Below, one piece after another: positions 2,886 to 63,135 of a DNA stretch of 64,000 nt. The notes below the pieces were generated by a model that was given only the letters and a program-made list of their open reading frames with translations, was not told the origin of the DNA and searched no databases. The stretch is taken from positions 1-64,000 of the IMG/VR virus record IMGVR_UViG_3300044858_003476. One strand, written 5' to 3'. Within the stretch, counting starts at the first letter, position 1, and each line of letters opens with the position of its first letter. Both the position numbers and the translations under genes were made by a program. This DNA comes from a virus.

Positions 2886-5882
2886 ATGCAAATCAACGTT
2901 ATACACACAGATGGTACTCGTACCCCCTATGATGCCAATCGCGCTATCGAGGTAATTAACTGGGCCTGCGAGGGCCTAGAGGTAGACCCCGATAAGTTAT
3001 CTCGGCGACTTAGTCGTCGCTTCAATGAAGATACCACTACAGAAGCTATACAGAATGGTCTGATTAGATCAGCAGCTGAATTAGCCGATTTGCATTACCC
3101 TGATTGGCTGAAGGTCAGTGGTCGTCTTCGTATGTGGGATTGGCGGCGTAAGGTTAAGGCCCGCCGCGGCTATCTCTATGGTAATTATCCAGTGGCCTTC
3201 GAGTACCTGAGGTCTGAGGGCCTCTATGAAGGATACCTAATAAAGAAGTTCTTAGACACGTATAGTACTGATGACATTGCTGAAGCCGGCACCTGGATAG
3301 ACCCAGAGCGCGATATGCGCTTTGATATAAGCGGTGCTGATCTACTCACAGCGCGCTATCTACTAGAGGGAGAGTTACTACAGGAGATGTGGCTAACACA
3401 GGCACTACTCCTCAGTATGCTGGAGCCCGCCCACGAGCGTATGGCCTTTGCTCATAAGACCTATGACCTACTCAGCCTCGGTAAGATCAGCCTGGCCACT
3501 CCTCTTATGAGTAATCTGCGTCAGGCCGATGGTAGCCTCAGTAGCTGTCATATTATCGATATCGATGATAGTCGCGAGAGTATCTTCGATAATATCTCTC
3601 AGTTAGCAGCTATGAGTGCTAATGGAGGTGGGGTAGGCGTACGCATTAGTAAGGTGCGGGCCCGCGGTAGTCGCATTCGTAAGAAGAAGGGCGCCAGTGG
3701 TGGTGTATGCCCTTGGATTAAGATTATCAATGCTACCATCGTCGCTACTAACCAACGTGGCGTACGCGCAGGGGCCTGTACCGTAGGTATAGACGTATGG
3801 CATGCTGATCTCCTTGAGTACATGGATCTGCGGGGTGATGCTGGTAGTGAGCATACGAAGGCTCGTGATATCCTGCTGCAATTCATTATCTCTGATGAGT
3901 TCATGCGTCGTGTAATTCTAGATAAGGACTGGTACCTAGTGTGCCCTACTGAAATCGAGAATGTATTTGGATATCAATTAGCCGATATGTACGGCGATGA
4001 ATTTACCAATGCCTATCACGCCATCGAAGCATATATCAACTCCTCTGCCCCTCCGCTCGACGTAGTTAAGAGGGTCAGCGCTAAGGCTATATGGAAGAAG
4101 ATGCTGATGCTCCTACTTGAGACAGGCACTCCTTACGTGGCTTTTAAAGACCGCATTAATGCTCTTAATCCTAATAAGCATGAGGGTATTATCGGTGGAG
4201 TAAATCTATGCGTAGCCCCTGAGACACTTCTTATGACTGACAGAGGCCACCTACCTATCGCTACCCTAGCGGGGCAGGTAGTCAACGCTTGGAACGGTAC
4301 TGAGTGGAGTGAGGTAACGGTACGCCAGACAGGGGAGAATCAGCCCCTTCTACAAGTTCACTTCAGTAATGGAGAGACGCTCGACTGTACCTACTACCAT
4401 AAGTTTCACGTACAGCGTCGTAATGGGGTAGATATTGTCGAGGCCCGCGATCTCGAGATAGGTGATAAGCTTATTAATTTCGATTTGCCAGTTCTATCCT
4501 CTGATAACGATGTTGACCTCCTTATTAAGGTAGCGTATTGCCCTGTTCCCATTAATGGTTATACTATTCAGACCCGATTAGAGTGGTTGGCTAGGCTGCT
4601 TGATTCTAATGGTACTTATAATAGCTTCCAAACCTTCAAAATAACGCATACCAGTAAGCCCTTCCTATTACAAGTGCGGCTCATGCTACAGACGCTTGGA
4701 GTGGACTCTAAGGTTTTCCCCCGGTATAAAGCAGGGCTTCGGGCGTATCGTCAGGAGAAGTTCTGCCTATTAATTGATAAGTATGGAGTATATCAGTTAT
4801 CCCAACTAGGCCTACGAACTAATCGCCTTCAGTGGATGGCTAAAAAACCTAAGTATGACAATACTGATCACATTACTATCAAGAAGGTAGAACTCACTGG
4901 TCGTCGTGATAATACGTACTGCGCTCACGAACCTAAGCGTAACCTGCTCATGTTCAATGGAGTGCTTACAGGCAATTGCGTCGAGTCATATAGTTTATTC
5001 AATAGCAGCTACTCACATTGCTGTATGCTTCTGTCGTTAGTACTACCTCGTATTGCTGACGATGAGATGGCTGATGTTAGCCGTATGGCTGTTCGTCTAT
5101 TAGATGCCGCGTGTGATCTTACTACTAGCCCTACTCCTGAGGCTCGCGCTCATGTGAGCCGCTATCGTACCATAGGCGTAGGTGTCATGGGGCTGGCTGA
5201 CTGGTTAGCCATTAGGCACCTTAAGTATCAGGATCTCGATGTCATAGAGAAACTATTCGAAGACATCTGCTTCTATACTACCCAGGCTAGTGTAGAACTA
5301 GCAGAGGAGCGGGGGGCCTACCCTGCATTCCCTGGTAGTGAGTGGAGTAAGGGCCTTATCCTGGGTGGTCGTGATAAGGAGTGGGTGAGAGATAATAGCA
5401 CCGACCCCGAGAGATGGTATGCCCTCATGGAGCGTTTAGTCGTATCGGGTATTCGTAATTCTCACATCCTGGCTACTGCTCCTAACTCCAGCACCTCGTT
5501 GGTACAGGGCACCACAGCCTCCTTCTTACCTGTCTTCTCTCGTCTTACCATTGATAAGAATGGGGCCGGTATTAATACCATAGTCCCACTCTATATCAAG
5601 GAAGCATTTCACTTTTATCAAGAGAGCCGCTATACTCATCCCAGTGTCGTAGTCTCTGCTGCAGCAACTATTCAGAAATGGGTAGATACTGGTCTTAGCA
5701 CTGAGTTGTTATTCAATTTCAATGAACATGCCTATGGCCTCGACTGCGTAATCACTGCTAAAGATCTAAATGATGTCTATATGCAGGCGTGGCGTGAGGG
5801 TCTCAAGACGGTATATTACGTGCGGAGTATGTGGCAGGATAAGGTAACTGAGAAGAGTGAGTGCCATTCCTGCGCTAGTTAA
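2886..5882 (+). CDS. nrdA: Class I ribonucleotide reductase large subunit, interrupted by an intein
   Basis: 998 codons, of which 256 (442-697) are an intein, leaving a 742-residue enzyme of normal size. An ATP-cone-like N-terminus (1-90) is followed by the barrel. LSSCHIIDIDDS carries the first redox cysteine. The split motif NL|C rejoins after splicing to NLCVESYSL, where that Cys is the thiyl-radical cysteine of the family. PNSSTSLVQGTTASF is the phosphate-binding loop region, and the C-terminal KSECHSCAS holds the swinging CxxC pair. It reduces NDPs to dNDPs together with the subunit encoded at 7510-8556. The coding frame is uninterrupted, so activity depends on protein splicing. Confidence 0.93.
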   Translation: MQINVIHTDGTRTPYDANRAIEVINWACEGLEVDPDKLSRRLSRRFNEDTTTEAIQNGLIRSAAELADLHYPDWLKVSGRLRMWDWRRKVKARRGYLYGNYPVAFEYLRSEGLYEGYLIKKFLDTYSTDDIAEAGTWIDPERDMRFDISGADLLTARYLLEGELLQEMWLTQALLLSMLEPAHERMAFAHKTYDLLSLGKISLATPLMSNLRQADGSLSSCHIIDIDDSRESIFDNISQLAAMSANGGGVGVRISKVRARGSRIRKKKGASGGVCPWIKIINATIVATNQRGVRAGACTVGIDVWHADLLEYMDLRGDAGSEHTKARDILLQFIISDEFMRRVILDKDWYLVCPTEIENVFGYQLADMYGDEFTNAYHAIEAYINSSAPPLDVVKRVSAKAIWKKMLMLLLETGTPYVAFKDRINALNPNKHEGIIGGVNLCVAPETLLMTDRGHLPIATLAGQVVNAWNGTEWSEVTVRQTGENQPLLQVHFSNGETLDCTYYHKFHVQRRNGVDIVEARDLEIGDKLINFDLPVLSSDNDVDLLIKVAYCPVPINGYTIQTRLEWLARLLDSNGTYNSFQTFKITHTSKPFLLQVRLMLQTLGVDSKVFPRYKAGLRAYRQEKFCLLIDKYGVYQLSQLGLRTNRLQWMAKKPKYDNTDHITIKKVELTGRRDNTYCAHEPKRNLLMFNGVLTGNCVESYSLFNSSYSHCCMLLSLVLPRIADDEMADVSRMAVRLLDAACDLTTSPTPEARAHVSRYRTIGVGVMGLADWLAIRHLKYQDLDVIEKLFEDICFYTTQASVELAEERGAYPAFPGSEWSKGLILGGRDKEWVRDNSTDPERWYALMERLVVSGIRNSHILATAPNSSTSLVQGTTASFLPVFSRLTIDKNGAGINTIVPLYIKEAFHFYQESRYTHPSVVVSAAATIQKWVDTGLSTELLFNFNEHAYGLDCVITAKDLNDVYMQAWREGLKTVYYVRSMWQDKVTEKSECHSCAS
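4209..4976 (+). other. Intein in NrdA, inserted before the active-site cysteine
   Basis: The 256-residue insert starts at Cys442 (CVAPETLLMTDRGHLP, block A) and ends at Asn697 (FNGVLTGN, block G), with +1 residue Cys698. Block B is seen as LDCTYYHKF, and block F as TYCAHEPKRN. The penultimate residue is Gly, not His. Between the splicing blocks lies a reduced region with one LAGLIDADG-like helix (LEWLARLLDSNGTY) and no clear second one, so the homing endonuclease is probably degenerate. RNR genes are a common intein site in phages and cyanobacteria. Confidence 0.88.
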
Positions 5883-5898
5883 ACTAGGAGAAGAATCG

Positions 5899-6105
5899 AT
5901 GGATACAAAGGATACAAATTTACTAACACTTGAGCAAGAATTACGGCTGCGCGCTACGTCAGATACTATTGATAAGATGTCGCTAGAGCAGGCCCGTCAT
6001 ATGCTCAAGGATGTGGTGAAGCAAGCAATGCTTAGAGATAATCTATACGCGGCTATCATCAAGAAGAATTGGGGTCTAGAGCCAACGACCCCGCCTAATC
6101 ACTAA
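5899..6105 (+). CDS. nblA: NblA-type phycobilisome degradation protein
   Basis: 68 residues. ATG 5899 is chosen because TAGGAG lies just upstream; the frame is open further 5' but overlaps nrdA. LTLEQELRLRATSDTI, MSLEQARHML and RDNLY...KNWGLEP match, from memory, the NblA pattern LSLEQEF..R....MS.EQA...L and the final WGLEP. NblA is a small helical adaptor that binds phycobiliproteins and brings in Clp protease to dismantle the antenna during nutrient stress. In cyanophages it is a known auxiliary metabolic gene, thought to free amino acids or limit photodamage during infection. It follows nrdA by 16 bases and is closed by a strong terminator. Confidence 0.85.
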   Translation: MDTKDTNLLTLEQELRLRATSDTIDKMSLEQARHMLKDVVKQAMLRDNLYAAIIKKNWGLEPTTPPNH

Positions 6106-6114
6106 CACCTACTT

Positions 6115-6136
6115 GGGGGCCCCGCCCCCTTTTTTA
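6115..6136 (+). terminator. Rho-independent terminator after nblA
   Basis: GGGGGC (6115-6120), loop CCC, GCCCCC (6124-6129), then a T6 tract. It closes the recA-nrdA-nblA operon. Confidence 0.85.
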
Positions 6137-6147
6137 TTTGGAGATAT

Positions 6148-6711
6148 ATGGATAATCAACTCGTACGTAACGTCTTTAATATGGTCGCCGGTAAGGTAGT
6201 CACTACTGATGTCGCTATCGGCCTACTCGGTGCAGAGGCTAATTGTTATGTCACTACTCTCATTAACTCAGTAGCAGCCGGAAATAAGACACCTGAACTA
6301 GCTACTACAGCCTTCTATGACAGACTAGAGCATAAGACTCTACTAGATGTTGTACGTGGTACCCGTCGTAATGTGCCCCTTCAGTTAGCTCTATTGCGTG
6401 ATATTCTACTAACTATCGAGTTACCAGAGCCCCCCGAATTCGAGTTTAATATCCTCAGTCTAGATGACTTTCAGGCTCTCCGTACCCTAGTTTATAAGGC
6501 CCTCCCTCGTACAGTAGGTGACCCGGATGGGCAGAAGGCCTATGCTAAGTTTACTAAGTTAATGGGCCTTGCTACTACTGAGGTACTCGAGTTACCTGAT
6601 TATGACGATGAGGAGGAGGAGCTCGATGATGAGCTTCAAGAACTAGCCGCTGAGTTCGTGGAGGAGTTGGGCTTAATCACGAATGTAGAATCTAAGGCAC
6701 CCCAAGACTAA
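6148..6711 (+). CDS. Unknown 187-residue protein with strongly acidic C-terminus
   Basis: Not recognised. Starts at ATG 6148 with GGAG nearby (TTTGGAGATATATG). The first 150 residues look globular and helical. Residues about 150-178 are almost all Asp/Glu (YDDEEEELDDELQELA), a tail type seen in proteins that mimic DNA or bind basic partners. The stop shares one base with the start of the next gene (TAATG), so translation is coupled. Confidence 0.75.
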   Translation: MDNQLVRNVFNMVAGKVVTTDVAIGLLGAEANCYVTTLINSVAAGNKTPELATTAFYDRLEHKTLLDVVRGTRRNVPLQLALLRDILLTIELPEPPEFEFNILSLDDFQALRTLVYKALPRTVGDPDGQKAYAKFTKLMGLATTEVLELPDYDDEEEELDDELQELAAEFVEELGLITNVESKAPQD

Positions 6712-7505
6712 TGCACGCTTATATTGATGAGATACGCGCCCTCCGCCCTCTCGGCAATACAATAGAGCTGGCTATAATTAAGCATCGCCAGGTGATAGTA
6801 CAACGCGGACTGTTTGCAGTCGGTAGTCTATGTGTTTATGTGGCCCCTGGCTCTATTCTACGGAATGGGCTAGGGCCCTATAAACCCGGCTATAGAGTTA
6901 AGATACGTAGTTACAATGGCTATACTAGCCAGGGGTTAATATTACAGACCCCTCTTAATTTCACTAATTATCAATTAGGACACGATGTCAGTCAGGAACT
7001 AGCTATTGATTATCCTACTACGACTCTGCCTGCTATTATACCTGCCCCGCGTCTTACCGAGTGCAGTGATTATAGTAAGGCGCGGGCCCTGGGTATGTAT
7101 AGTTGGTATGAGTTACCCCCCGGGCAAGACTGCGCTCTATACGTCATAGATGGTGTATTTGGTTCTGGCCCCATAAGTGTTGATTATGATACCACGACTA
7201 TATCAGCGTGTATGCGCGCATGGGGCGGAGATCTAGTAGTATGGGGTAGATACAGTGGTATATTCTTAATATATGATCTATATTTTATAGATCAGCAGCG
7301 TTATGCCACTCTAGAAGAGATAGAAGATTTCCTACTAGAAGTGCCCCTCCAGAGTTTATTAATTGAGAGACATGCCTCGTTACCTCTAACTGCTGATACT
7401 CTTCGTATACTGTGCTCTACTGCCAATACTACCGTACCTAGCAGTCACGTATTGTTGAAAGCAGAGGGGCCCGAGCCATATCAATTTGTGGTTAAGCCAC
7501 GTTAA
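6711..7505 (+). CDS. Unknown 264-residue protein between acidic protein and nrdB
   Basis: Not recognised. Start ATG overlaps the previous stop by one base, and the end lies 4 bases before nrdB. The text is rich in beta-type residues and prolines (SLCVYVAPGSILRNGLGPY, PATIIPAPR-like region), with no membrane segment or known catalytic motif. Expression with nrdB is likely from the spacing; no function is assigned. Confidence 0.75.
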   Translation: MHAYIDEIRALRPLGNTIELAIIKHRQVIVQRGLFAVGSLCVYVAPGSILRNGLGPYKPGYRVKIRSYNGYTSQGLILQTPLNFTNYQLGHDVSQELAIDYPTTTLPAIIPAPRLTECSDYSKARALGMYSWYELPPGQDCALYVIDGVFGSGPISVDYDTTTISACMRAWGGDLVVWGRYSGIFLIYDLYFIDQQRYATLEEIEDFLLEVPLQSLLIERHASLPLTADTLRILCSTANTTVPSSHVLLKAEGPEPYQFVVKPR

Positions 7506-7509
7506 ATTA

Positions 7510-8556
7510 ATGCAAGTACATCTCCCCCCTATCTTTAATCCCAATGGTGACGATAGCCCCCAGAAGCGTAGATTATTTGGTGGTAATCCTACTAATATCA
7601 TTAATCTAAAGGATGTCAGATACAAATGGGCCAGTCATCTCTTTACAGAGATGAGAGCCAATATATGGATTCCTCAAGCCACTGATCTCACGCCTGATAT
7701 TAATAACTATGTCACGATGCCCCCCAATATGAGGCGGGCCTTCGATGGTATGTTATCCTATCTCACTTTCTTGGATAGTCTACAGACCTGCGTATTACCG
7801 CTACTTATGCCTGTTATTACTGCACCTGAGGTTAGAATATGTATGGGCGAGCAGTTATCACAGGAACAGGTACATTCTCAGTCATACGCGTATATTATCG
7901 AGACTGTAATCCCCACGGATAAGCGAGATTATATCTACGAGTTATGGCGGGAGGATCCTGTGTTACTGAGGCGCTGTGAGTATATCCAGAATCTCTATGA
8001 TAGGTATATTCATGAGATGACTATGGAGAATTATACTATCAGTATGGTAAGTGACTTCTTACTCGAGGGTATATACTTCTTTCCTGGCTTCCGCTTATTC
8101 TACGCTATAGCTAATGAGCGTTATATGTCCGCTACAGCTGATATCATTAAGCTCATCGAGCGTGATGAACAGACCCACCTTAAATTAATCGCTAATATAA
8201 TTCGTACCGGCCTAGCTGAGGGTACACTCATGTGGGATACGGATGAGATTATGGATTTATTCCATAAGGCCGCCGAGTATGAGATTGAATGGGGCCTCCA
8301 TATCGGACTTGGTGTGAATGGTATTAGTGCTACTACTATCGAACAATATGCTAAGTATCTATGTAATATTAGAGCCCGCGCAATAGGCTTACCTACTGTA
8401 TTCGAGGGGCGCCAGTATAGCCGCAATCCCTACGCCCACCTCGATAGATTCGCTGCTACTACTGGTGAAGACTCTATCACTCGAGATAACTTCTTTGAGA
8501 GTGGTGTTATGTACCGTAACCCCGCTAAGGTAGTAGACGGTTGGGATTCTATCTAA
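7510..8556 (+). CDS. nrdB: Ribonucleotide reductase small (radical-bearing) subunit
   Basis: 348 residues from ATG 7510 (an upstream in-frame codon at 7486 lies inside the previous gene). All six metal ligands of class I NrdB can be placed: D89 (FLDSLQ), E119 and H122 (QEQVHSQSY), E186 (FLLEGIYFF), E220 and H223 (ERDEQTHLKL), with spacing 34 and 3 as in the E. coli enzyme. Y126 sits where the stable tyrosyl radical forms, so it is a Tyr-radical type. It generates the radical passed to NrdA and is separated from nrdA by about 1.6 kb. Confidence 0.93.
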   Translation: MQVHLPPIFNPNGDDSPQKRRLFGGNPTNIINLKDVRYKWASHLFTEMRANIWIPQATDLTPDINNYVTMPPNMRRAFDGMLSYLTFLDSLQTCVLPLLMPVITAPEVRICMGEQLSQEQVHSQSYAYIIETVIPTDKRDYIYELWREDPVLLRRCEYIQNLYDRYIHEMTMENYTISMVSDFLLEGIYFFPGFRLFYAIANERYMSATADIIKLIERDEQTHLKLIANIIRTGLAEGTLMWDTDEIMDLFHKAAEYEIEWGLHIGLGVNGISATTIEQYAKYLCNIRARAIGLPTVFEGRQYSRNPYAHLDRFAATTGEDSITRDNFFESGVMYRNPAKVVDGWDSI

Positions 8557-12824: not shown

Positions 12825-13472
12825 ATGAAAACATTCGTTACCGCAGACCGTTATCTCCCTACTAAGAATAATAGTCGGGATGGTGGGTATGATCTTAAGG
12901 CCCGCGTCACAGAAGAGCATAAGTTCGTAGCTGAGAGTCTCCTGAAGAACCTATCATTACAGAAAGTATTGTTAGAGTCTGAGTGTAATCTATTCGTTAA
13001 TGGGAGTCTCGTAGAGCATGACCATATAAAAGATACACTAGAGACATGCATACTCGATGAGAAGGGCTTCTATGTCCTGCTGCCAGGTCAATCTGTCCCT
13101 GTCCATACAGGCTTCTATGTGACCTCGCCTGGTTTACCTGAAGAAACTCAGGATAAGTTAGTGGAGATGGGTATAGGTCGCCTAGTGCGTATTGGTCGTA
13201 TCCAGCCCCGCTCAGGATTAGCTAAGCATGGTATTAGTGTAGCTAATACGCCGGGCCTCGATGATATGGAGACATACGTAGGGGAGATCCTAGTGCTACT
13301 AGAGAATAGAGGTTACGATGTGCACCTATTCGGTGATGGGGCCCGTATTGCCCAATTCACATTCGAACTGGTAGCCGATATGGGGGACTTATCTAATTAT
13401 CTCGTACGAGATGAAGTTGACTTAGGTGCTACTGCGCGGGGCCCCCGCGGCTTCGGCTCGAGTGGTGTATGA
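12825..13472 (+). CDS. dut: dUTP diphosphatase
   Basis: 215 residues from ATG 12825; the frame is open further upstream only across the terminator. Trimeric dUTPase motifs: 1 RDGGYDLKA (18-26), 2-3 RIQPRSGLAKHGISVANTPG with the catalytic-site Tyr/Asp region METYVGEI, 4 GDGARIAQFTF, 5 RGPRGFGSSG. An insert of about 60 residues after motif 1 makes it longer than the usual 150. It hydrolyses dUTP to dUMP, keeping uracil out of DNA and feeding dTMP synthesis. The stop overlaps the polymerase start (ATGA). Confidence 0.9.
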   Translation: MKTFVTADRYLPTKNNSRDGGYDLKARVTEEHKFVAESLLKNLSLQKVLLESECNLFVNGSLVEHDHIKDTLETCILDEKGFYVLLPGQSVPVHTGFYVTSPGLPEETQDKLVEMGIGRLVRIGRIQPRSGLAKHGISVANTPGLDDMETYVGEILVLLENRGYDVHLFGDGARIAQFTFELVADMGDLSNYLVRDEVDLGATARGPRGFGSSGV

Positions 13473-14743
13473 GAGTTAATACTGATCTAATTGACCTAGA
13501 GTATATCACTACTCGAGAGGAGCTAGATGCACTACTACTAGAACTAGAGGGCCGCCCTCTACTCGCTATGGATTATGAAACCTATGCAGATGTAGAAACG
13601 TGGGGGCCCCAAGCTAGTGCACTGGATCCCCATACGTTAGTAGCCCGCCTGCTACAAATTAACTGGCCTGGTAATGCAATACCGTATGTGGTTGATCTCC
13701 GCGCCCTAGACTGGCCCACTGAGATACGGGACATATGGCTTGATAGTAGTGTCAGGAAGGTCTGCTTCAACGCACGCTTCGAAGCCTTAGTAACGCAAGC
13801 TACGTGGGGCGTATGGCCTGATAATATATACTGCGCTATGGTGCTATTTCAGCAAATAGGCGCTGCTACTGGATTCAAAGCGGGTCGTACTAGAGGCTAT
13901 TCTTATGGTAGTCTAGTACGCGATATACTAGATACTCCTCTGAATAAGGAGCTCGCTAGTAGTGATTGGTCAGGTGAGTTAACACCCGCTCAATTACAGT
14001 ACGCCGCTCTAGATGTGGGGGCCCCTCGTAATTCTAATTACACTAGCCTCCTGCTAGAGGCCTATGCTCTACTACGCAATGAACTACTCTATACCTATGA
14101 GATGCCCCAAGTAGAAGAGATAGACCAGGCTGCCTTTATGGAGATAGCGCGCATGGAATGGAATGGATTGCCCATTAACATGAATGTCATGCGCAGCTTT
14201 CTGAGTACAGCTCAATCAGAGCTAGATAATTATAAGCTGCGTATGAGTGCTCACTTCGACTTCAGCGTAGATCAAGTAGTCGATTGGAACTCGGGGGCCC
14301 CTCAGGTGACTCTAGTAGTACCTGATAAGATAACGGCCCTATTGAACAACCCCACTGCCCTAGTGAGTCGTATCCAGAAACTCCTACCCGTTGAGCTAGA
14401 TAACCTGCAGCAGAAGACACTAGAAACAGTGCTGCGAGAACTAGATAGTGAGGATGACGAGGATGGCGCTACTAGTGAAGAGGGGATACGCGACCTGGGT
14501 ATTCAGGTTATATCAGATCTACTGCGATATAAGAAGCTGACTAAGATGGTTAGTACTAACTGGGCGGCCCTGATTAACCCGCGTACAGGTAATGTCCACG
14601 CCCGTTACCAGACCATCGGCACTAGTACAGGCCGTATGAGTAGTTCTAGTAGTGGAGATACTAATAAATTCAATGCACAACAGATTAGTAATGTTGAGCT
14701 GATGGTAAATATAGAGGAGGATAGATTGTTTGAGGACAATTAG
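13469..14743 (+). CDS. polA: Family A DNA polymerase, N-terminal part (3'-5' exonuclease and thumb)
   Basis: 424 residues. Exo I LLAMDYETYA (D35, E37), Exo II VCFNARFEAL, and Exo III near LQYAALDVGAP, so proofreading is intact. The polymerase part begins with thumb helices and reaches ARYQTIGTSTGRMSSSS then FNAQQI, the block normally followed by IP.R and motif A. Instead, after QQI comes the short unrelated tail SNVELMVNIEEDRLFEDN and a stop. The rest of the polymerase starts 120 bases later. The first gene overlaps dut by 4 bases. Split gene, intervening sequence or bypass are the options. Confidence 0.88.
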   Translation: MRVNTDLIDLEYITTREELDALLLELEGRPLLAMDYETYADVETWGPQASALDPHTLVARLLQINWPGNAIPYVVDLRALDWPTEIRDIWLDSSVRKVCFNARFEALVTQATWGVWPDNIYCAMVLFQQIGAATGFKAGRTRGYSYGSLVRDILDTPLNKELASSDWSGELTPAQLQYAALDVGAPRNSNYTSLLLEAYALLRNELLYTYEMPQVEEIDQAAFMEIARMEWNGLPINMNVMRSFLSTAQSELDNYKLRMSAHFDFSVDQVVDWNSGAPQVTLVVPDKITALLNNPTALVSRIQKLLPVELDNLQQKTLETVLRELDSEDDEDGATSEEGIRDLGIQVISDLLRYKKLTKMVSTNWAALINPRTGNVHARYQTIGTSTGRMSSSSSGDTNKFNAQQISNVELMVNIEEDRLFEDN

Positions 14744-14862: not shown

Positions 14863-15825
14863 ATGACGAAAATAAAGATGAATAGTCGCTTTGCTCTACA
14901 GGCCCCACCAGGCTATGCATGGGTAAGCGTAGACTTCTCGAGTCAAGAGTTAAGATTGGCGGGGGCCTTCAGTAAGGATTCTGCTATTACAGAGATTTAC
15001 GTACTCGAAGATGAGTACCATAGAGGTATACGACCCCTCCCCCTATCGCCTGAGGGTCTAGCCTATACTGACCCCAAGGTAGATCAGCACCTAGTCGCCA
15101 GTACGTTCCTGAATAAGGATATAGAGCGGCGCATGGTAAACGAGCCCTGGACTGTGAGTGCAGATGATCCTGTCATCTCACCCTGGCGAAAGAAGGGTAA
15201 GATTATGAACTTCAAGGTGATATATGGTGGTAGCGCTAGTAGTTTAGCAGCAGACCTCAATTGTGATGACAAGGAGGCAGGGCGTCTACTCAAGCAATAC
15301 TTCACAGGTTTCCATGGCCTCTATACCTGGATTGAGGTTACGGGGAGCCTATGTTCTCGTACTCGATGGGTTCGTAGCGCTATGGGCCGCTTCATCAATG
15401 TCAATGAGGATAATGCTAAGGGTATAGCTGGTAAGAGTACTACGCGGCGAAAGGCAGTTAATTCTGTTATCCAGAGCTCAGGTAGTGAGATGCTGAAGAT
15501 CTCGCTACCGCGAGTAAGACATGCCATAGAAACTATAGATGCAGGAGAACGGCGGGCTAGTATTATCAACGCTACTCACGATGAAATCAATCTACTAGTG
15601 CCGGGCTATGTGGCATGGCAAGTAGTTAACTCTCGAGTAGTACCTATCTTGGATCAGGACTACTATACTGGTCGGCAGCTCGATGAGTTTATGCTGGCAC
15701 AACGTTATGCCGCTGCTGCATTATATGAGATGGAGAGCGCAGGTAACTATATACTTAAGGATGTGCTGGGCTCCGATATACCATGCCGGGCTAAGCCAAA
15801 TATACACCGCTATTGGTCACATTAA
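14863..15825 (+). CDS. polA: Family A DNA polymerase, C-terminal part (palm and fingers)
   Basis: 320 residues beginning MTKIKMNSRFALQAPPGYAW, which in a normal protein would follow NAQQIP. Motif A is VSVDFSSQELRLAG (metal-binding Asp), motif B KIMNFKVIYGGSAS (fingers O-helix), and motif C NATHDEINLL (HDE). All catalytic residues are present, so this half has the active site but lacks the template-grip and exonuclease regions on the first cistron. Either two polypeptides assemble, or the message is joined. TTTAAG-type RBS is weak. The stop overlaps the next start (TAATG). Confidence 0.9.
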   Translation: MTKIKMNSRFALQAPPGYAWVSVDFSSQELRLAGAFSKDSAITEIYVLEDEYHRGIRPLPLSPEGLAYTDPKVDQHLVASTFLNKDIERRMVNEPWTVSADDPVISPWRKKGKIMNFKVIYGGSASSLAADLNCDDKEAGRLLKQYFTGFHGLYTWIEVTGSLCSRTRWVRSAMGRFINVNEDNAKGIAGKSTTRRKAVNSVIQSSGSEMLKISLPRVRHAIETIDAGERRASIINATHDEINLLVPGYVAWQVVNSRVVPILDQDYYTGRQLDEFMLAQRYAAAALYEMESAGNYILKDVLGSDIPCRAKPNIHRYWSH

Positions 15826-30062: not shown

Positions 30063-30144
30063 GGGTTAGTGGCCGAGTAGTCGAAGGCAACAGACTGTAA
30101 ATCTGTAGAGTAATTCCACGCTGGTGCAAATCCAGCCTAACCCA
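30063..30144 (+). tRNA. trnY: tRNA-Tyr (GTA)
   Basis: Acceptor GGGTTAG/CTAACCC fully paired; anticodon arm ACAGA-CTGTAAA-TCTGT gives anticodon GTA; variable region around TAATTCCA; T arm GCTGG-TGCAAAT-CCAGC (TGC instead of the usual TTC). Discriminator A, CCA not encoded (ACTA follows). The class II-like variable arm suits bacterial tRNA-Tyr. Confidence 0.88.
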
Positions 30145-30173
30145 CTAAAAATAATAACCATAGGAGTAAATCA

Positions 30174-33950: not shown

Positions 33951-34187
33951 TTGTTGAAAGAGATTAATCCAAACTATTGGGCACCCCATAATGAGGAATG
34001 GGCGCCGTATCGTGAATGGGCCGCACCTATACCTGTCACTAACCTACCAATTTTAGCAAACGGTGATACTTTATACTATAGCTTCTACGTTTATAATGCT
34101 GGGGGGCCCGCCAAGTTTTACTATAGACTGGCAGGAAATGTATATAACATTCTATATGAGGGTGACTATTTCTATGAAGGTTATTAA
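33951..34187 (+). CDS. Array unit 1
   Basis: About 77 residues, TTG start (33951 or 33954) behind GGGAGG, the only good ribosome binding site at the array head. Carries WAPHNEEWAPYREWAAPIPV, DTLYYSFYVYNAGGPAKFYY and ends GDYFYEGY. It would launch translation of the coupled series. Confidence 0.65.
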   Translation: MLKEINPNYWAPHNEEWAPYREWAAPIPVTNLPILANGDTLYYSFYVYNAGGPAKFYYRLAGNVYNILYEGDYFYEGY

Positions 34188-34458
34188 TTGTAACGGTTGG
34201 CTTAGTAGTAATTGGGGTCCACGTATGTCTATATCTAGATCTATTACTGACCCAGTGATTCTAGCAAACGACGATAATTTATATTATACATGGTTCTATG
34301 AAAGTATAATTGGCGCCTATACTCTTGAATTAGGCAGGTTATATTTTTCTATCGACTGGTTTTATTATAAACTGCGTTTTTATCAGCACGCTTTATTTAA
34401 CATAAACTGGTATATTGATATTTTAGGTGAGGATGATTATTTCGATGAAAACAATTAA
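34174..34458 (+). CDS. Array unit 2
   Basis: 94 residues, 14-base overlap with unit 1. MKVINCNGWLSSNWGPRM, then NLYYTWFYESIIGAYTLELG, WFYYKLRFY, an extra block NINWYIDILG, end EDDYFDENN. Confidence 0.6.
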   Translation: MKVINCNGWLSSNWGPRMSISRSITDPVILANDDNLYYTWFYESIIGAYTLELGRLYFSIDWFYYKLRFYQHALFNINWYIDILGEDDYFDENN

Positions 34459-37297: not shown

Positions 37298-37496
37298 TTG
37301 TAATGGTTGGGCTCCGCGTAATATTAAATGGGCTCCGTCTGGATGGGGGGCATCTGTACCTACTGCTGTCCCTCTAATAGCAGATAATAATAAGTTATTC
37401 TATAACTTCTATTTTTATCATAGTGGAGGGCCCGCCAGGTTTTACAATAGACTAGTGGGAGTAGTGTTGTATAGCTTTCTAGATGAAGATAATTGA
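37284..37496 (+). CDS. Array unit 18
   Basis: 70 residues. MKKINCNGWAPRNIKWAPSG, KLFYNFYFYHSGGPARFYNR, end LDEDN. Confidence 0.6.
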   Translation: MKKINCNGWAPRNIKWAPSGWGASVPTAVPLIADNNKLFYNFYFYHSGGPARFYNRLVGVVLYSFLDEDN

Positions 37497-37662
37497 TTGT
37501 AATAATTGGGTCCCGCATAATAAGTCAAATATACCTATTACTGACCCGCTTATTAATGCAAAAGGCTTATTCGTATTTTCTAATGCCGGAGGAGTCGCTT
37601 GGGCTTACTATAACCTATCATGGTTTACTAAAAACTATCATTACTTTTATGAAGATGATTAA
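37483..37662 (+). CDS. Array unit 19
   Basis: 59 residues. MKIIDCNNWVPHNKSNIPIT, NAGGVAWAYYNLSWFTKNY, end YFYEDD. Confidence 0.5.
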   Translation: MKIIDCNNWVPHNKSNIPITDPLINAKGLFVFSNAGGVAWAYYNLSWFTKNYHYFYEDD

Positions 37663-37939
37663 TTGTAACGATTGGGCGCCTCATAGTAATAACGATTGTT
37701 GGACTCCACGTAATAAGTTGAGTATACCGATACCTATTACTGACCCGCCGATTTTACCAAATGGTGATAATCTATACTATCTATGGTTCTATCGTTACTA
37801 CCATGAAAGCATGGGTCTCGGGGTCTATATTCCTGAATTGGACAAGTTACATGTTCCTATCGACTTGTTTTATTATAAACTAGCATATTTGTTATATGAC
37901 TTTTTAGGGGAGGGGGATTATTTCGATGAAGATGATTGA
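37649..37939 (+). CDS. Array unit 20 (longest)
   Basis: 96 residues. MKMINCNDWAPHSNNDCWTP, PIPITDPPILPNGDNLYYLW, LGVYIPELDKLHVPIDLFYY, end GEGDYFDEDD. Shows the complete domain plan. Confidence 0.65.
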   Translation: MKMINCNDWAPHSNNDCWTPRNKLSIPIPITDPPILPNGDNLYYLWFYRYYHESMGLGVYIPELDKLHVPIDLFYYKLAYLLYDFLGEGDYFDEDD

Positions 37940-49329: not shown

Positions 49330-50020
49330 TATACTGCAGGAACTACGAGACTGGAAGAATGACTTTGGTAGTCTACTTGATAGTAAGCAGCTTATAGGAA
49401 CTATTGATTGGCAGCCCCTCTGGGAACGGTTAGTAGCTCTAGAGAGATTATTCAATGATCCTGTAATATCTGAACCACTGGATAACTATAAGGTGGCTCT
49501 CCGCCACCCTATTGATGCCTGTGGGATGACAGAATTTGTTGTGCAGATGGTAGAGAAGGGCTCCAGTGAGAATGATATATCCCGCGCCTTATCTATGCAC
49601 GGTGTTGATCTTACAGCGCGCCAGGTAGGTGAATGGGTAACCGCCTATAGAAGCGCGCCTATAATGGAGAGAGTAGAGTATCCTTATGGCTCTGTATTTG
49701 ATACTCAGACACAGCTACAGACTATATTCAATGATCTTAAAGCAGGTATTATAGCTCTCGAGTCGGCTGATAATGAACCATTTTTTAAGGCTAGGAAAGT
49801 CAAGGAGGAAATATGGGTATCTATGTTGCAGGAGCAGCGTCAACTACTGAAGGATGCGCGCTCACTGATGGAGACTGTCAAGCAATTCGAGGCCATAGAC
49901 CGATTCAAGCAAATTGTAATAGAGGAGGTGAACAAGGAGAATCCAGCTATAGCGAGTCGTATCTACCGGCGTATACAGTCGGCCAAGACACTCCTCAATA
50001 CGTTGGAGCCCCTCGCATAG
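49313..50020 (+). CDS. Helical protein with HTH, possible small terminase subunit
   Basis: 235 residues from ATG 49313. ENDISRALSMHGVDLTARQV looks like a helix-turn-helix; the C-terminal 100 residues are a coiled-coil (LQEQRQLLKDARSLMETVKQ). An N-terminal DNA-binding helix pair with a coiled-coil oligomerisation part suits small terminases. The large subunit is on the other strand 10 kb away, so the link is weak. Confidence 0.5.
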   Translation: MADYTNILQELRDWKNDFGSLLDSKQLIGTIDWQPLWERLVALERLFNDPVISEPLDNYKVALRHPIDACGMTEFVVQMVEKGSSENDISRALSMHGVDLTARQVGEWVTAYRSAPIMERVEYPYGSVFDTQTQLQTIFNDLKAGIIALESADNEPFFKARKVKEEIWVSMLQEQRQLLKDARSLMETVKQFEAIDRFKQIVIEEVNKENPAIASRIYRRIQSAKTLLNTLEPLA

Positions 50021-50283
50021 TGACATCACAGTATAGCACGCATATACTAGATGAATACTTTCTTTATAATAGCCTCAATGTATTCATCGGTACATTTATA
50101 TTTAGCCTAGGTGGTAGTATTAATTATGATAGATGTGGTTATACTTTCTATCAGGACATTCGAATAGGCTTTATCTATTGTGCTATTATCTGGTCTAGTC
50201 AACGCCCATTTCATCTGAAAATTAGAGGTAGGCTCATTGAAAACAAACTATCACGGCGGGAAGTATCTCAGATGGAACAATAG
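50020..50283 (+). CDS. Unknown 87-residue protein at the end of the plus-strand block
   Basis: GTG 50020 overlaps the previous stop by one base; the longer in-frame extension upstream lies inside the previous gene and is ignored. YFLYNSLNVFIGTFIFSLGG is hydrophobic, possibly a membrane helix; the end is basic (LKIRGRLIENKLSRREV). Confidence 0.5.
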   Translation: MTSQYSTHILDEYFLYNSLNVFIGTFIFSLGGSINYDRCGYTFYQDIRIGFIYCAIIWSSQRPFHLKIRGRLIENKLSRREVSQMEQ

Positions 50284-50617
50284 GGCGATAGTAAAAACAG
50301 TACAAAAAGCTAGTCGAGTGTTGTCGCACTGCCCAGCTTGAATTCAGTAAACGTTCTACCTATCGCTTCCCGCCTTGATTATCTCCACCGTAGAGTTTTA
50401 CCAGTTCTGTTACGGTACGGAGAAAAACGAACTCGTAGGGCTTGATCTCGCCCAGAGCTATGCCGTAAGCAAGGGGCTAATCTCAATAATGCAAAGTTAG
50501 GAAAGAGCCAGTACCCCTGCGGATACTGGCTCTTTATTCGTCCATGTCCTCCTCATCTTAGCTTATTAGAGTAGATTGAGTCAAGCTAATAATGTTAGGG
50601 ATTCCTGACACGAGGGC
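50284..50617. other. Convergent junction without genes, with structured-RNA signs
   Basis: 334 bases between the last plus-strand gene and the giant minus-strand gene. CTTCCCGCC at about 50366 is the exact complement of GGCGGGAAG at about 50255 (inside the upstream gene end), and CTATCG/CGATAG lie nearby. Several other blocks could pair (CTCGTAGGGCTTGATC, GCCCAGAGC). Ends with the terminator at 50505. A non-coding RNA is possible. Confidence 0.5.
50505..50536 (+). terminator. Terminator at the convergent junction
   Basis: GAGCCAGTA (50505-50513), 10-base loop, TACTGGCTC (50524-50532), then TTTATTC. Ends plus-strand transcription. In the other direction it precedes no A/T-rich tract of note. 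Confidence 0.85.
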
Positions 50618-53600
50618 CTAACCCATACGTAACATTACCTCTCTATCAAGTTTACCATCTAATCTATTGACCCAGAGACTATTATCGTCACTGGGTCTTG
50701 TTGTGACTGTTACTGTATTACCATTCTGCTCGGCGCTGGTCTCCTGAGATATTAGGGCTATATGGCCCCGTCGTGTTGCCTCCTCTGCTATCTCCTTCAG
50801 CTCGGGGCTGAAGTTACCATTATTGTTTATAATGGCTCGAGATTGAGTAGCGGGTGCAGGCCCACCTACTGTCTTACTAACGGCTATGGCTAGACGGGCC
50901 ACCTCTGTATTATAAGGAGTAGCTGACTGGGCTAGCTTATTCATAGTGTCTGATACAATAGCGCGAATAGCCGCCATGTTGTTCTTATACTGGCCTAGCA
51001 TCTGCTGCCTAGCGTATACTTTTATGGAGCCCCAATCACTACTGGCCCGCGCTGACTTGATCCAGCTGGTCTGTCCGAATATCTCTACGTTGAAGAGACG
51101 GGCCCGTCGTGCTATCTCTCTCTCTGTGAATGGATCTAGTAGTTGTATGTTACTATCTCCTCCATCAGGTGTCGGTAACAGCATAGCTGCCGTCCTATTA
51201 CCGGTAGAGTCCTTGCTAGCTTCGGCCCATCTATCCGCGTTGTATTGAAAAGCGCGCCCTGGCATAGCTAGTGTCATGCCACCTGGCCCTTGTTTATAAC
51301 GCGCTAGTAGATAATCTGTTGGCGTGACGAACATATTCAACCCTGTTATCTTACCCATACCCTCTACTGCGGCGCTACTACCACGAGCCAGTGTCTCGTG
51401 TACACCTGGGACAGCAGATATGGCCGTCCCTCCTAGGAAGCCCCCCAGGCCTGATTTAGCTATTAGACCCCAGCCCGCGCCCTTGAACCAACTTGCAGCC
51501 GCCCCGACTAGTGACATTACACCTAGTGCCATACCTATACCTGATGTAATGACGCCCTTGATCTCATCATTACCCAGTGATAGGACGCTGGGTATCTTAT
51601 CTCCTATTATGTCACCTATAGCTCTATCTACGCCGGCCCAGAATCTCTCACTAGCCTCACTGAAGTCCTGCCAGGCATTGCCCTTGGTGGCTGCCTCTAG
51701 GTGTTTATAGCCCCACGCAAATAGTCCTGTTGCTATACCTACACCTATTGCTACCACCCCTATTGCTGCTACTAGAGGGGCGGCTACGACTGCCGCGCCT
51801 ATAGCTCCTATTGCTTTAGCAGCCATTAGACCTGTGACTATACCAGTTATGGAGTTACGCACTGTCATACCAGCATGCTCCTCAAGTAGCTGTCTCTCTG
51901 CCTCAGTGTATAACTCATCTCGTTGAGATCGGCCGAGTCTTATGAATGCACTACCCACATCTAGACTCTCTATGCCCCCCCAGGCTGTCATAATGCCGCC
52001 GCCTAATGCCTGAAGCGATCCCCGTGCGCTGAGCCGCGCCTTAAAGAATGGGTAGACCTTTATCTCTGAAGGGTCAGCTATGGGGGCCTTACCGCTATCC
52101 CAGTGGAATATACGCTTCCATTGAGGTGCCTTCTTCCGCTCTATATCTATAATGCCGCCCTGCTTATTGGCCCAGTCCTCTACTCTCTGATTGCGACTAC
52201 GCAATACTTCTATATCAGTAGTGGCCCCCGCCATTATCAGCGCCCTCTCCTTTATCTCCTTGAATAGGAAGCCTAGTTCATTTAGTACGCTAGCGCTTAT
52301 GATGCGTATCTGTTCGTCTGATGTCAGACCACGGAAGCGCGATGATATCATGAAGGCATCACCAGGGCGGGGGTTAAGGGATATCTTACGTATAACCTCG
52401 CGCTCTATCGTCTCCTCGATGACCTGGCGTATACGACGTCTTAGGAATGAGTCAGCATCTCCATACTGTATCTTGAATGTCTCCTCGCTTAATCCTAGTA
52501 GTGAGTAGGCCTTCTGTGAGAAGGGGGCGGGCCCGTTATTAATTGATATATCGCTATCTAGTAGGTTTAGTATCTTAGTTAGGAAGCTATCGGGCCCGTT
52601 GCTTATAGCGTCATCTAGACTATCTACTAATTTACGTATTAGATCGTCCCTATCAGTTATACTGCGTACAGTGCTCTCGTTTATAATAGGGGCATCGTAT
52701 ACGCGCGCCATTAGAGTATCCATCCCGTCATTTGCAGTCATGCTCATGGAAGTATTGAGGAAATAACCTATTCTCCTCCCTACCTCTCCGCCCATGCCAT
52801 CAGGTGGACTGGCGTGTAGCGTATAGGTGAAGCGGCCCCGCTTTACCTCATACTTCATGCGGTTCTCTCCTAGGGGGCTCTTAGCCTGAGGTGCCGTTAT
52901 AATAAAGTGTTCTGCCCCCTCACTGGCCCACAGAACACGCAGCTCAGTCATAACGTTATCTATAGCTCGTGCCTGCTTACCTCCCTCTAGTACGCCAAAT
53001 AAACTCATCATCGCGCCTATAGCGCCCGCAATCATAGTGGCTGCAACGCCCCCAGCTAGACTCGTCATAATGGGTGTGTTGATTAGTGGTATCTTACCCC
53101 AGAAATTAACTAAGAAGGACCCTATCGTCCCCAGGATATTGCTCTCCTCTGTCCTCATTGATGTAGGCGCGCCCATCTCTAGCCAGTCTCCATCTGCAGC
53201 ATATATATCTACCCGTCTACCCCCTGTACGCCGTTCCGACGAGTACTTAATGAAGTTCTCGTACTGTACGAAGTTGAGGGGGTTAGCCACTCTGGATGTT
53301 AGACCAGGGAATGCAGTTTCTGCTAATAGTCGCATGTCTCCCTTACTCAACGATGCAATTAGCGTGTCTAGATATGACTTGGGTTTCTTACTATCCCGGG
53401 GATTCATACCATCAGGATTACCTAGATTAGTCATCTCAGATACTAGTGACTCGGGCCGCTGATATGCGAAGTTGCGTATTACCTGCAGGCGACTACTCAA
53501 CGCTATATTCATCAACGGATCCGCTCTATAGAGGGCCAGGCTGGCTCTATTAAGTGGGCTAGTTACGCGCCGGCGGTTCTTATCAGTCAGTGGGTCTAAT

Positions 53601-56600
53601 CGTGCTGTTAGACTAACTACGCTGATGGCCATAAACTTGCGCTGATCCTCTGATAAGTTATTCATCGAGGCATCAGTTATATTAGCCTTACGGTAGTCGC
53701 GCGCGTATAGCTGGCCCATGGCCCCTGCCTTGACCATCTTGAACATATAGGCTGGCGCTGTAGAATATACTGCCGTACTGATGTCCTGGTTAGTAGACTG
53801 TAGCTGCATGTAGAAGGTCTGCCGCGAGCCTAGCTCTCCCTCTCGCACACTAGTACCGAATACTAGGACACTCATAAATGGGTTACTGGCATTTAATACA
53901 AAGCTGCTGCGTAGGTTATCTATTGCAATACTCATACGCCCTACGCTGCTCTCTATGGGGTTGATTAAGCGCACGCCGCGCTTACGCTTATAGGCGCCAT
54001 CTGCCATTACAATCAGAGGCTCCAGGGGATCCGGTGCCACAGCTATATCCCGTCGTGTGACTAGGCGGAATGCATTAGACACGAACTCCAGCGGCGTGCC
54101 ATCCATAGCGTTATAGAAGCCCGCTGTTGCTTCCTCCTGACTACCTGAGCCAGATAATATAGCACCTACACCTAATAGAAGAGCAGTAGCGGCTATGTTC
54201 ACGGTGCCTAGCGCCGCTGCAGAACGCAATAGTCTATTACCGCCGGGCCCCAGTATTCTGGCGTTTCTATACTTGAGGTAGTCTCGGTTATCTACTAGGG
54301 TGCGTAGGTTCTCACCGTAATCTGTTAGTCTATAGTTATTTGCCTCGTCTATAATGTCCCGTACCTGGAAGTTAGATGGCCGTCGGCCGTGTTCATTCAT
54401 AGCATTATGGTATGCTGTGCCATGAGTTGTCTTCAGGTGTTCATCTAGTAAATCAAAGCTATGATAGCCCCGTCGATTATTACGGTAGTCTGATAGGTAG
54501 GTCTCTACAGTATTAAAGTCAGATCGTATGTCCCTCTCAAGAGAGGCTAGACGTAGCTTGCGTAGCACACCTAGTGGGTTCAGTGGGTGCATCTTACCTA
54601 CCTTGGCCCTCATTCTACGATACCGCTCTATAGTAGCGCCTGGGTCTAGCCCGAGGTCTGCTAGTTCTACTACTGCCATAGCGTTCACGCCAGCATAGAG
54701 CCCTACTGTAGCTAGTCGAGTTATGACATTGTCGTCCATGCCCTCACTTATATTCCACCCAGTCTTAGTCTGGAATAGGGCCGCTGTAGTGCCAAGAAGT
54801 AGTGGCATGCGATAGGCCCGCCATCTGCGTAGACCCGTATGCATACCGCGGGCTATCTTAATATCATCCATACCTGTTATTCGCGCTACACGAGATTGTA
54901 GCGCCGCTACCTTCTTACGCCATGGATCGTGCTTCATAGCGAAGGAATATGCGAAGGCCAGAGAAGTACCTACAAGTAGAGAACTTGTTAGTGGACTCGT
55001 GCCCGTTAGTCCAAATAGTACGCCTAGCACAGGCGGTACAATAAAGTTACTCAGAGCTATGACCTTAGCTAGTCTTCTATCTAGCTTGTCGAATCCCTGT
55101 AGTGCTCCGTAACTAAACCCCGCCATTGTGTCTATTACCTTACCTGAGTAATGCCAGAAGGAGCCCGCCGCAGTTCGTGCACCTGCTATGGGTATATTCA
55201 TAGCCCGGCCGCCCCAGTCATCTACTAGTACTGCTAAGTTAGTCATCTTATTGCTGAGATCCTTCGCACCCGCACCTATCGTGGGATCGCGTAGTATCTT
55301 AGAGCGCGCATACTCTGGTAACAGAGCAGACAGACTAACTAGACCCGCCGTTAACGATACTGCTAATGATACATTACCAGCGCTCTGTATGTAATTAATA
55401 ACGTTATCCTTCTCCTGGTTATATATGAAGGCCTCAGCATAAGGCTTATTAGCGTCGAAGGCCAGGGGGGCTGACACGCTCATAGAGATACCCAGTACAG
55501 GTGCTGATTGTACCCCCATACTATAACTGTATACGCCCTTATCTATCTCAGAATCACGGCGCCGTGACTCCGCTATGAAGAACTGTATGTAGGACGTGGG
55601 GGCCTGACTCGCGTAGACCTCTATAGTTTTGGCCCGTCGACTTATAGCTGCTACTGGTGTGTGAGCGCTAATACGTCCTGCTACGAATGCAGACCATGCC
55701 TCTAGAGTCCTCTCAGTTCTATTGCCAACTAGCCCGCCTGCATCGACCCTATTGAGTACTGATTGTTTCCATGCCTGGAGACTACCTACTGTTGCGTAAT
55801 TCTCGTCTAGTACCTGTCCCTCTTGTCCTGTCATGCGGTTGAAGGTATTCATTATAAAGTTACCTACACCAGTGATGACGCGGGGGGCCCATAGTAGCGC
55901 TGCTGTAGTTAGACCCCACGTCATGAATCTATTACCCTTCTTGACTAGAGTGCCTCGCTTCAGTACCTCCTCCGCCTCTGCGGATATTAGACGACTGCCA
56001 CCACTGGCATACAACTCATCGCTGAGACTATACCGGTTAATAGCCATACTGCCGAATACCTCACTACCTACATAGCCCCCGGCTACTGCTAGCGCTGTAT
56101 AGGCGGCCCCCATGACGGGCCCCTCGAGTACTAGATTGCGGTTATTGTAGCGCACCTCCTCTACGTCGACAGCACCGAACTGTAGGTTAATAGAACGCAG
56201 GAAGCTAGGCCCACTGGCATCTAGTATATTAGCTAGGCCAGTCTGTACGTTCATAAGGGCTAATACAGAGGCACCTATAATACCCTTATTGCGGAAGAAC
56301 GATGAGGTCAGGAAGCGACTATTACGCCCTGATATTAACCTGAATAGATCCTCTTGAGCTGCCGTAGCCCCCGCTGCCCGTTGTACTGCTTGCTGATAGT
56401 GAGGACTATTCTGTATGGCCTGATTGTAGACTATCAGCTGATCTACAAACTTAGCAACTAACTGGCGCTGCTCCGGAGTTTGTGCATTACCTATCTGACG
56501 ACTACCTTGTCCGTTAATGCCTACCTCCCATGTTAGTAGGTTCTCTACTAACATCTGTCTCTCTAACTTCATGAGTTCTTTATACTCTACAGCTAGATTA

Positions 56601-59314: not shown

Positions 59315-59931
59315 TGTTCATTGACCTCTATATTATCTGTATAGGAGACCTCTACCGGCACTACCGGTGTATCGTATTCTACTACTACGGGATCATTATT
59401 AGGTAATTGTATCTCTGCCTTGAAGCGCTCTGCTCGACTAGTGCTCTGGTCCTTGACGGTGTAATCTACACTAGCACCCAGTGCATCTTTAACAATGATG
59501 CCTGTCAGTATATCGGGGTAATCGAATAAACTAATTATATTGTCTACCGGTGTCACCTCTATACGCTCGCGGCCGGTAGACGTACCTATCCACCAGTATC
59601 GTGTGTCTACTAATGACTCTTGATAGTCCAGGACTACGCGCCCTGGTACCTTAGATTGTTGTCTCCATCTCCAGATCTCTATCTTATAGGCATTCTCTAG
59701 TCTGAATGCCTCGCTGGCTCGCGGCGTGCTGTACTGGGGGTAGGCTAGCGGTATATACTCTGGCTCGCAGGGGGCCAGCAATAAGCGTAGTGGTATAGTC
59801 GACTGGAGGTGTATTCTCTGACTGGTGCCAGGCGTGACCCCACGGAGAGAACGCGGCGGTGTGATATACAGGTAGTATCGCCACGAGCTGAATAATTCCT
59901 GGAACTTAAATACAACTGGAGATAATTTCAT
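59296..59931 (-). CDS. Unknown structural-block protein, 211 residues
   Basis: Minus strand, ending inside the start of the giant gene. Beta-rich text (YYLYITPPRSLRGVTPGTSQ, YWWIGTSTGRERIEVTPVDN, VVVEYDTPVVPVEVSYTD) typical of virion or tail-type proteins. No signature. Confidence 0.6.
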   Translation of the reverse strand: MKLSPVVFKFQELFSSWRYYLYITPPRSLRGVTPGTSQRIHLQSTIPLRLLLAPCEPEYIPLAYPQYSTPRASEAFRLENAYKIEIWRWRQQSKVPGRVVLDYQESLVDTRYWWIGTSTGRERIEVTPVDNIISLFDYPDILTGIIVKDALGASVDYTVKDQSTSRAERFKAEIQLPNNDPVVVEYDTPVVPVEVSYTDNIEVNEQWNRIY

Positions 59932-60004
59932 TATGGTTATGGCGCGCCTGGGGACAGCTTTTAATACATCATGGATTAGATGAGCTTATCTATTGTGGAC
60001 TTGA

Positions 60005-61783: not shown

Positions 61784-62561
61784 GTGTCACCTCCATACAC
61801 ATATTCTTAGTCTCTGTGTATTCTGTTATGTCTATGTCAGGTTGTATGGCCTTGACTAAATTAGGATTCTCATTTATAGCAACATAGAATACGTCACCTT
61901 GGGGTATCATGTGTACTGCTGCAGGGCCCGATATTGTGTTTACTGGTAGTGATGGATTCAGATATATAGATGATACGGTACTCATAATATAGGGGCCCGC
62001 GTCTATCTCTAGCTCTATATACTCGTCTGGTATTGGTACCTCTAAGCGAGGGGGCGATTCTATATAGCGTAGTGTCCAGGGCACAGTTGAATTGAAGCGG
62101 ATAGTCGTTACAGTTGTATTCTGCGGAGTCTCTAGCTGTACCTCTTGGTCTAGACTATTGTCTCGAGAGAATGCAGTGTAGATTATAATAGTACTGGAGC
62201 TACCTGACCGTAGTATGTACGCGCTTATACTACTCTCCTCCTTAGTAGAGAGGATGGCTCTCTGCAGTGGTTCTAGACCCCAGCTATCTAATTCTGAGCG
62301 CATTATAAAATTACCCCTACTATCTATCATGTCGTAGGGAGCGGGCACTCTAACAGAATGTATATCCTTATTGAGAACTACGACGGGGTAATCAGTACTA
62401 CTGAGTAATTGTATTATCCACCAATCTAGTAGTGGCAGAGCGCCTAATAGTGCGGGGGCCCGTGTTCTAATTAATGACTCGAGGTTAATCACAGTGAATA
62501 ATGGGTTTAGACAGCGACGCTTTAGTAGTATGCCCCTCACTATGTGGTCAATAGCAGGCAC
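61773..62561 (-). CDS. Unknown 262-residue protein upstream of terL
   Basis: Overlaps the terL start by 11 bases. Helical N-terminus, then beta-rich text (YSLRSGSSSTIIIYTAFSRD-like, TTVTTIRFNSTVPWTLRYIE, MIPQGDVFYVAI). Likely virion component such as a head or tail completion or fibre protein. Not recognised. Confidence 0.6.
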   Translation of the reverse strand: MPAIDHIVRGILLKRRCLNPLFTVINLESLIRTRAPALLGALPLLDWWIIQLLSSTDYPVVVLNKDIHSVRVPAPYDMIDSRGNFIMRSELDSWGLEPLQRAILSTKEESSISAYILRSGSSSTIIIYTAFSRDNSLDQEVQLETPQNTTVTTIRFNSTVPWTLRYIESPPRLEVPIPDEYIELEIDAGPYIMSTVSSIYLNPSLPVNTISGPAAVHMIPQGDVFYVAINENPNLVKAIQPDIDITEYTETKNMCMEVTLGA

Positions 62562-62663
62562 CGCGCATGTACTTGACTGGTATGGGAATGAATGGCACTA
62601 ACAGTCGAGGAGGCCATAGAAATATACCCTGCTGGCCCCTCTACTAGGCCGCAGCTACAAGGG

Positions 62664-63134
62664 TCATGTCTGCTCGTTGAGCAGTAAATTGATAGTGTAA
62701 TTGTATACTGCAGGTGGTGCTACCGAGAGTGGTGCGCTAACTACGGTCTCTATGTGCACTACAGTGCCCACGTTACTGCCGCGGTTATTACCATTAGCTG
62801 GACTGGCACCAGTTAGGTTAGCCCCCCGTACTACCAGTGCATGAGTGAAGGGCCCTATCGTCCCCCCTGATGGCGTGAATGTGGCAGTACTAACCAGACT
62901 AGCAGTGGGTGCTGTACGCGTTGGGATAGTGATGATTGGGGTAGTGACAATAAATCTACTATAACTACTAATCTCCCAGAGGGCTGCTTCAGCCATAGTG
63001 ATATTCAGGCGGGCATCTATCTCATTGGGGGTTAATACATTACCGATACCTAATTGGGGTCGATTGATTAGAATGACTACTAGATTAGTGTTAATCTGAG
63101 ATAGTAGGAAGGAGTATAGTGCTCTTGTGTACAT
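62664..63134 (-). CDS. Unknown 156-residue protein, structural block
   Basis: Thr/Ala-rich beta text (IPTRTAPTASLVSTATFTPS, GTVVHIETVVSAPLSVAPPA). INTNLVVILINRPQLG at the start. Resembles a phage tail or fibre-associated protein by composition. A 102-base gap separates it from the next gene. Confidence 0.55.
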   Translation of the reverse strand: MYTRALYSFLLSQINTNLVVILINRPQLGIGNVLTPNEIDARLNITMAEAALWEISSYSRFIVTTPIITIPTRTAPTASLVSTATFTPSGGTIGPFTHALVVRGANLTGASPANGNNRGSNVGTVVHIETVVSAPLSVAPPAVYNYTINLLLNEQT

Positions 63135-63135
63135 G

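Follow-up and report, generated by a model that had tools for sequence, protein, structure and literature searches.

A short open reading frame directly behind the ribonucleotide reductase gene nrdA raises the question whether this virus carries a genuine nblA, where such a gene would have come from and what it would do during infection. The analysed stretch of 64,000 nucleotides, called the window here, comes from an IMG/VR virus record with a length of 80.6 kb (IMGVR_UViG_3300044858_003476). Very probably the gene is the nblA of a Ma-LMM01-type Microcystis myophage (Fukuivirus), situated at a group-conserved locus, encoding an antenna-degrading adaptor and probably co-transcribed with nrdA. 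Phage nblA at this locus is already known and the finding, while correct, is not new.

Identity and start site of nblA

The gene is located at 5899-6105 on the plus strand, starts with ATG and encodes a phycobilisome degradation protein of 68 aa. A Pfam-A search of this ORF resulted in a single match, NblA (PF04485, E=3.2e-14), which spans positions 2-49 of the 50 profile positions. The first-pass annotation had named the gene nblA and had set a profile search beforehand as the refuting test; the match scored 53.5 bits with a gathering cut-off of 25 bits, and the naming thus withstood this test. The three NblA landmarks it had listed (LTLEQELRLR, MSLEQA and WGLEP) are all found in the protein. 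Phage and Nostocales NblA have the same residue in twelve columns (L11, E12, Q13, R18, M27, Q31, L36, Q42, R46, K55, W58 and G59), and the residues kept throughout the family, an N-terminal LEQ and a C-terminal K..WG, are retained. The best matches in a PDB sequence search with phmmer are solved NblA proteins (1ojh, 2q8v and 2qdo, with 3cs5 matched weakly). The AlphaFold2 model consists of two helices (residues 11-25 and 29-57, mean pLDDT 79.8); this shape and the size of the protein fit the NblA norm of ~60-70 aa. Foldseek found no PDB counterpart of the model, a result that carries no weight for a two-helix protein of 68 residues. Judged by its sequence, the window gene is a real NblA.

Between the stop codon of nrdA (5880-5882) and the ATG of nblA there are 16 bases, in which a Shine-Dalgarno-like AGGAGAAG (5886-5893, plus strand) can be read that is kept in all relatives compared at this site. 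A mechanical ORF finder lengthens nblA to a GTG at 5857 such that it overlaps nrdA, and a longer, overlapping gene is likewise annotated in the Ma-LMM01 RefSeq record (NC_008562 4899-5138, locus L002). The ATG with its Shine-Dalgarno is the better start and corresponds to the annotated one in MaMV-DC and MaMV-DH01. Hence the reported overlap of nrdA and nblA is probably an annotation effect. Right behind the start, GATACAAA occurs twice, 9 bp apart (5902-5918), as a direct repeat that gives MDTKDT at the beginning of the protein. All environmental relatives examined show MDTKDT, cultured isolates only MDT.

Phage, locus and transcription

Aligned parts of the window share ~92-95% DNA identity with Ma-LMM01, MaMV-DC, MaMV-DH01 and MaMV-CH/DL (~94.5% for part of 1-25000, ~92% for part of 25001-50000 and 95.4% for 97% of 50001-64000). 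This high identity and the gp001-gp008 order in common with Ma-LMM01 place the window in Fukuivirus, whereby membership of the relatives refers to those with a taxonomy given in their records. Since the genomes nearest to the window belong to phages of Microcystis aeruginosa, the host is most likely Microcystis. The expectation of a phycobilisome-bearing, freshwater-type host is thereby borne out and sharpened.

The order recA, gp7, nrdA, nblA, gp4, RNA ligase, nrdB and rIIA equals Ma-LMM01 gp008 to gp001, with nblA between nrdA and gp4 as for gp005. Eleven IMG/VR contigs also carry nblA. The large subunit of class I ribonucleotide reductase, encoded by nrdA (2886-5882, plus strand), has 998 aa including an intein (PF02867, E=3e-116; PF00317; ATP-cone; PHROG 84, E=1.2e-207). 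Behind nblA, on the same strand, follows a hairpin with T-rich tail (6115-6139; GGGGGC-CCC-GCCCCC, then TTTTTTATTT), which is a likely intrinsic terminator or 3' end. It precedes a homologue of Ma-LMM01 gp004 of unknown function (6148-6711; PHROG 34617, E=6e-111), an RNA ligase-like gp003 homologue (6711-7505; PHROG 968, E=1e-29) and nrdB for the small subunit (7510-8556; PF00268, E=1.6e-56; 97% identity to LMM01 gp002), all on the plus strand. The start of nrdB was picked so that its length equals that of LMM01 nrdB.

The NrdA intein (256 aa, 4209-4976) starts with Cys, ends with Asn before Cys and sits in the insertion motif NL|CVES. It matches LAGLIDADG_3 (E=1.3e-5) and, weakly, an intein-splicing domain. 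The cysteine directly after it is by position presumably the radical-bearing one, as in E. coli NrdA. The intein is absent from Ma-LMM01, LMM02, LMM03, HPM05, MaMV-DC and MaMV-DH01 and present in three IMG/VR loci (L006-L008); its best isolate matches are ribonucleotide reductase genes of Vibrio, Curvibacter, Salicola and Rheinheimera phages with ~40% identity. Where L007 has LARLLDSDG as its LAGLIDADG-like motif, the window has LARLLDSNG, and thus the catalytic acid of the homing endonuclease may be missing from the window intein.

Elsewhere in the window, the DNA polymerase is split over two adjacent ORFs with the exonuclease and polymerase parts (13469-14743 and 14863-15825); the records of relatives likewise list 3'-5' exonuclease and DNA polymerase as separate entries. 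Two ORFs (34063-34458 and 37493-37939) encode clearly similar proteins (INCN.W, then DNLYY.WFY and FYYKL). These look like paralogues, of unknown function, and lie within a stretch of ~33-41 kb with few long ORFs. The main near-identity matches to isolates begin only at ~34.6 kb, and the region of ~26.4-34.6 kb contains a tRNA-Tyr (30063-30145). Based on both observations it looks like a variable cargo region.

The first-pass annotation had linked nblA transcriptionally to dNTP synthesis. Both genes lie on the same strand with a 16-bp gap, a Shine-Dalgarno in between and the T-tailed hairpin 3' of nblA. Promoter-like sites around nblA are not in excess, with 19 found versus 21 expected from shuffles. 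The hairpin is present in all relatives checked; the relative L011 has another stem sequence and still forms a stronger hairpin (-18.4 kcal/mol). The T run is shorter in cultured isolates, a point that speaks against our reading. In Ma-LMM01, qPCR showed nblA and nrdA following one and the same early course, with transcripts of both detected at 1 h and fully or almost at their peak by 3 h; during infection, phage nblA transcripts were twenty-fold above host nblA (PMC4103541). The proposed linkage is hence backed by gene order and by the qPCR of a relative, with one shared transcript being putative. Most likely the window nblA would be transcribed together with nrdA in the replication phase, forming the 3' end of a nucleotide-metabolism block directly behind nrdA and ahead of the hairpin. 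For Ma-LMM01 the 2018 transcriptome study confines the early class to gp054-gp063 (PMC5780444). Accordingly, Ma-LMM01 nblA (gp005), called early in 2012, probably belongs to the middle or replication class.

Divergence and origin of nblA

Compared with LMM01, nblA shows a dN of 0.10 and a dS of 0.116, resulting in a dN/dS of 0.89 with a wide bootstrap range (0.32-4.0). In contrast, nrdA has a dN of 0.016, a dS of 0.150 and a dN/dS of 0.11, and the ratio of amino-acid-changing to silent differences is distinct between the two genes (Fisher p=2.5e-4). In most other pairs the dN/dS of nblA is 0.4-0.9. Raised ratios are also seen in gp4 (0.61), gp7 (0.43) and rIIA (0.44), and hence nblA does not stand alone among accessory genes in this respect.

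While the genes around it share ~95% DNA identity with isolates, the NblA protein shares 80%, which could suggest that nblA was recently swapped in from another phage lineage or a host. However, its dS resembles that of nrdA as well as of recA (0.115) and nrdB (0.111), which argues against a recent swap. Identity to host NblA reaches at most ~48%, and in a tree of 32 rows all phage NblA cluster separately from the 23 host sequences (100/100 support, long branch of 1.87); the tree was built from 66 columns and leaves most of the host branches unresolved. We regard such an exchange as extremely improbable, and replacement of the gene was rejected with silent divergence similar to that of the neighbours. 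The low protein identity stems from a higher number of amino-acid changes.

A conversion tract comprising nblA and the nrdA intein was considered because the closest nblA (97.6% DNA identity) occurs in L006-L008, the very relatives that bear the intein. It was rejected, as neither the intein (92.9%) nor the part of nrdA between intein and nblA (~95%) shows elevated identity to L006-L008.

An alignment scan of genome contigs for a host donor gave nothing above threshold. Among the best 80 matches listed for an Anabaena NblA query, nearly all are Nostocales. An order-wide search retrieved NblA in 278 of 291 cyanobacterial genomes, the best-scoring ones not being close to the phage gene. A DNA search for a donor in 60 of these genomes, run with no positive control, was empty.

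The faster protein change relative to the neighbours, with the dN/dS values given above, would also fit relaxed constraint, and in its extreme form a decaying, neutral cargo gene, i.e. an NblA relic with open frame but without selection. Against this, every relative found has kept the reading frame open, and 43 alignment columns are invariant among eight phage NblA sequences. Moreover, all 13 amino-acid-changing codons versus LMM01 fall within residues 7-45 while the last 23 codons are without change. The Shine-Dalgarno and the downstream hairpin are retained, and LMM01 nblA is strongly expressed (PMC4103541). Decay is therefore very unlikely. The uneven distribution of changes could be read as diversifying selection on the N-terminal and middle parts with a fixed C-terminal antenna-binding part, an idea we consider doubtful. 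Such selection would perhaps follow changes in host ClpC or host counter-measures.

That the N-terminal and middle parts show raised amino-acid change, and that the protein is distant from host NblA, might also hint at an NblA-like protein redirected to another host target, with an adaptor role other than phycobilisome degradation. This is hardly credible given that the family-wide residues are kept, and according to PMC9602691 expression of a freshwater cyanophage NblA leads to phycobilin loss.

Predicted function and relation to known nblA genes

Taken together, nblA as an antenna-degrading adaptor is the preferred reading. NblA has been proposed to act as an adaptor that contacts ClpC by an N-terminal and the phycobiliprotein by a C-terminal motif; structural mimicry is the alternative model (PMC4103541). 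As PMC9602691 reports, citing earlier work, phycobilins are lost upon expression of freshwater cyanophage nblA in Synechocystis and likewise of marine viral nblA in S. elongatus. For the window phage, the identity of the gene, its locus, its conservation and its predicted fold are established; everything functional we infer, based on the retained residues shared by phage and host and the two predicted helices. The protein would be a small two-helix adaptor whose conserved C-terminal part binds phycobilisome rod proteins and whose N-terminal part recruits the host ClpC-ClpP protease. Degradation of the antenna during infection would then free amino acids and/or reduce light damage in the infected cell. 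Antenna breakdown is published for relatives and would by analogy apply to the window phage.

The presence of nblA has been on record from the time the Ma-LMM01 genome appeared (Yoshida et al. 2008, cited in PMC5780444). It recurs in the records of MaMV-DC and MaMV-DH01 and is found in the Lake Erie phage Ma-LEF01 (PMC12542629). The window gene leaves the existing knowledge of phage nblA unchanged. It assigns the window to a Microcystis phage and contributes a further natural allele of a known auxiliary metabolic gene. The protein change of nblA relative to its neighbours gives a modest, testable starting point for asking how antenna breakdown is tuned by phages.

Ma-LMM01 nblA (gp005, NC_008562) has the same locus, gene order and orientation to nrdA, with 80% protein identity over residues 5-68. 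The window gene differs by the repeat of 9 bp that lies in frame close to its start (MDTKDT versus MDT) and by changes in residues 7-45, and the window nrdA differs by its intein. MaMV-DC and MaMV-DH01 likewise carry nblA at this locus (80-81% protein identity); they show the same differences in start repeat and residues, and their nrdA is without intein. Uncultured IMG/VR Fukuivirus contigs such as IMGVR_UViG_3300008107_000102 are closer (97% NblA identity, same locus, same nrdA intein), the latter with two amino-acid differences. The nblA of Planktothrix phage PaV-LD, likened here by description, belongs to the same family with the same role (PMC4103541, PMC9602691) but to a different phage type; neither NblA query recovered it from the phage collection. 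Cyanobacterial NblA (1ojh, 2q8v, 2qdo and 3cs5) share the family by profile and the predicted two-helix shape. The host NblA proteins compared are only ~29-48% identical to the window protein, which weighs against our reading, and a proline-rich C-terminal tail (EPTTPPNH) sets the phage protein apart from host NblA.
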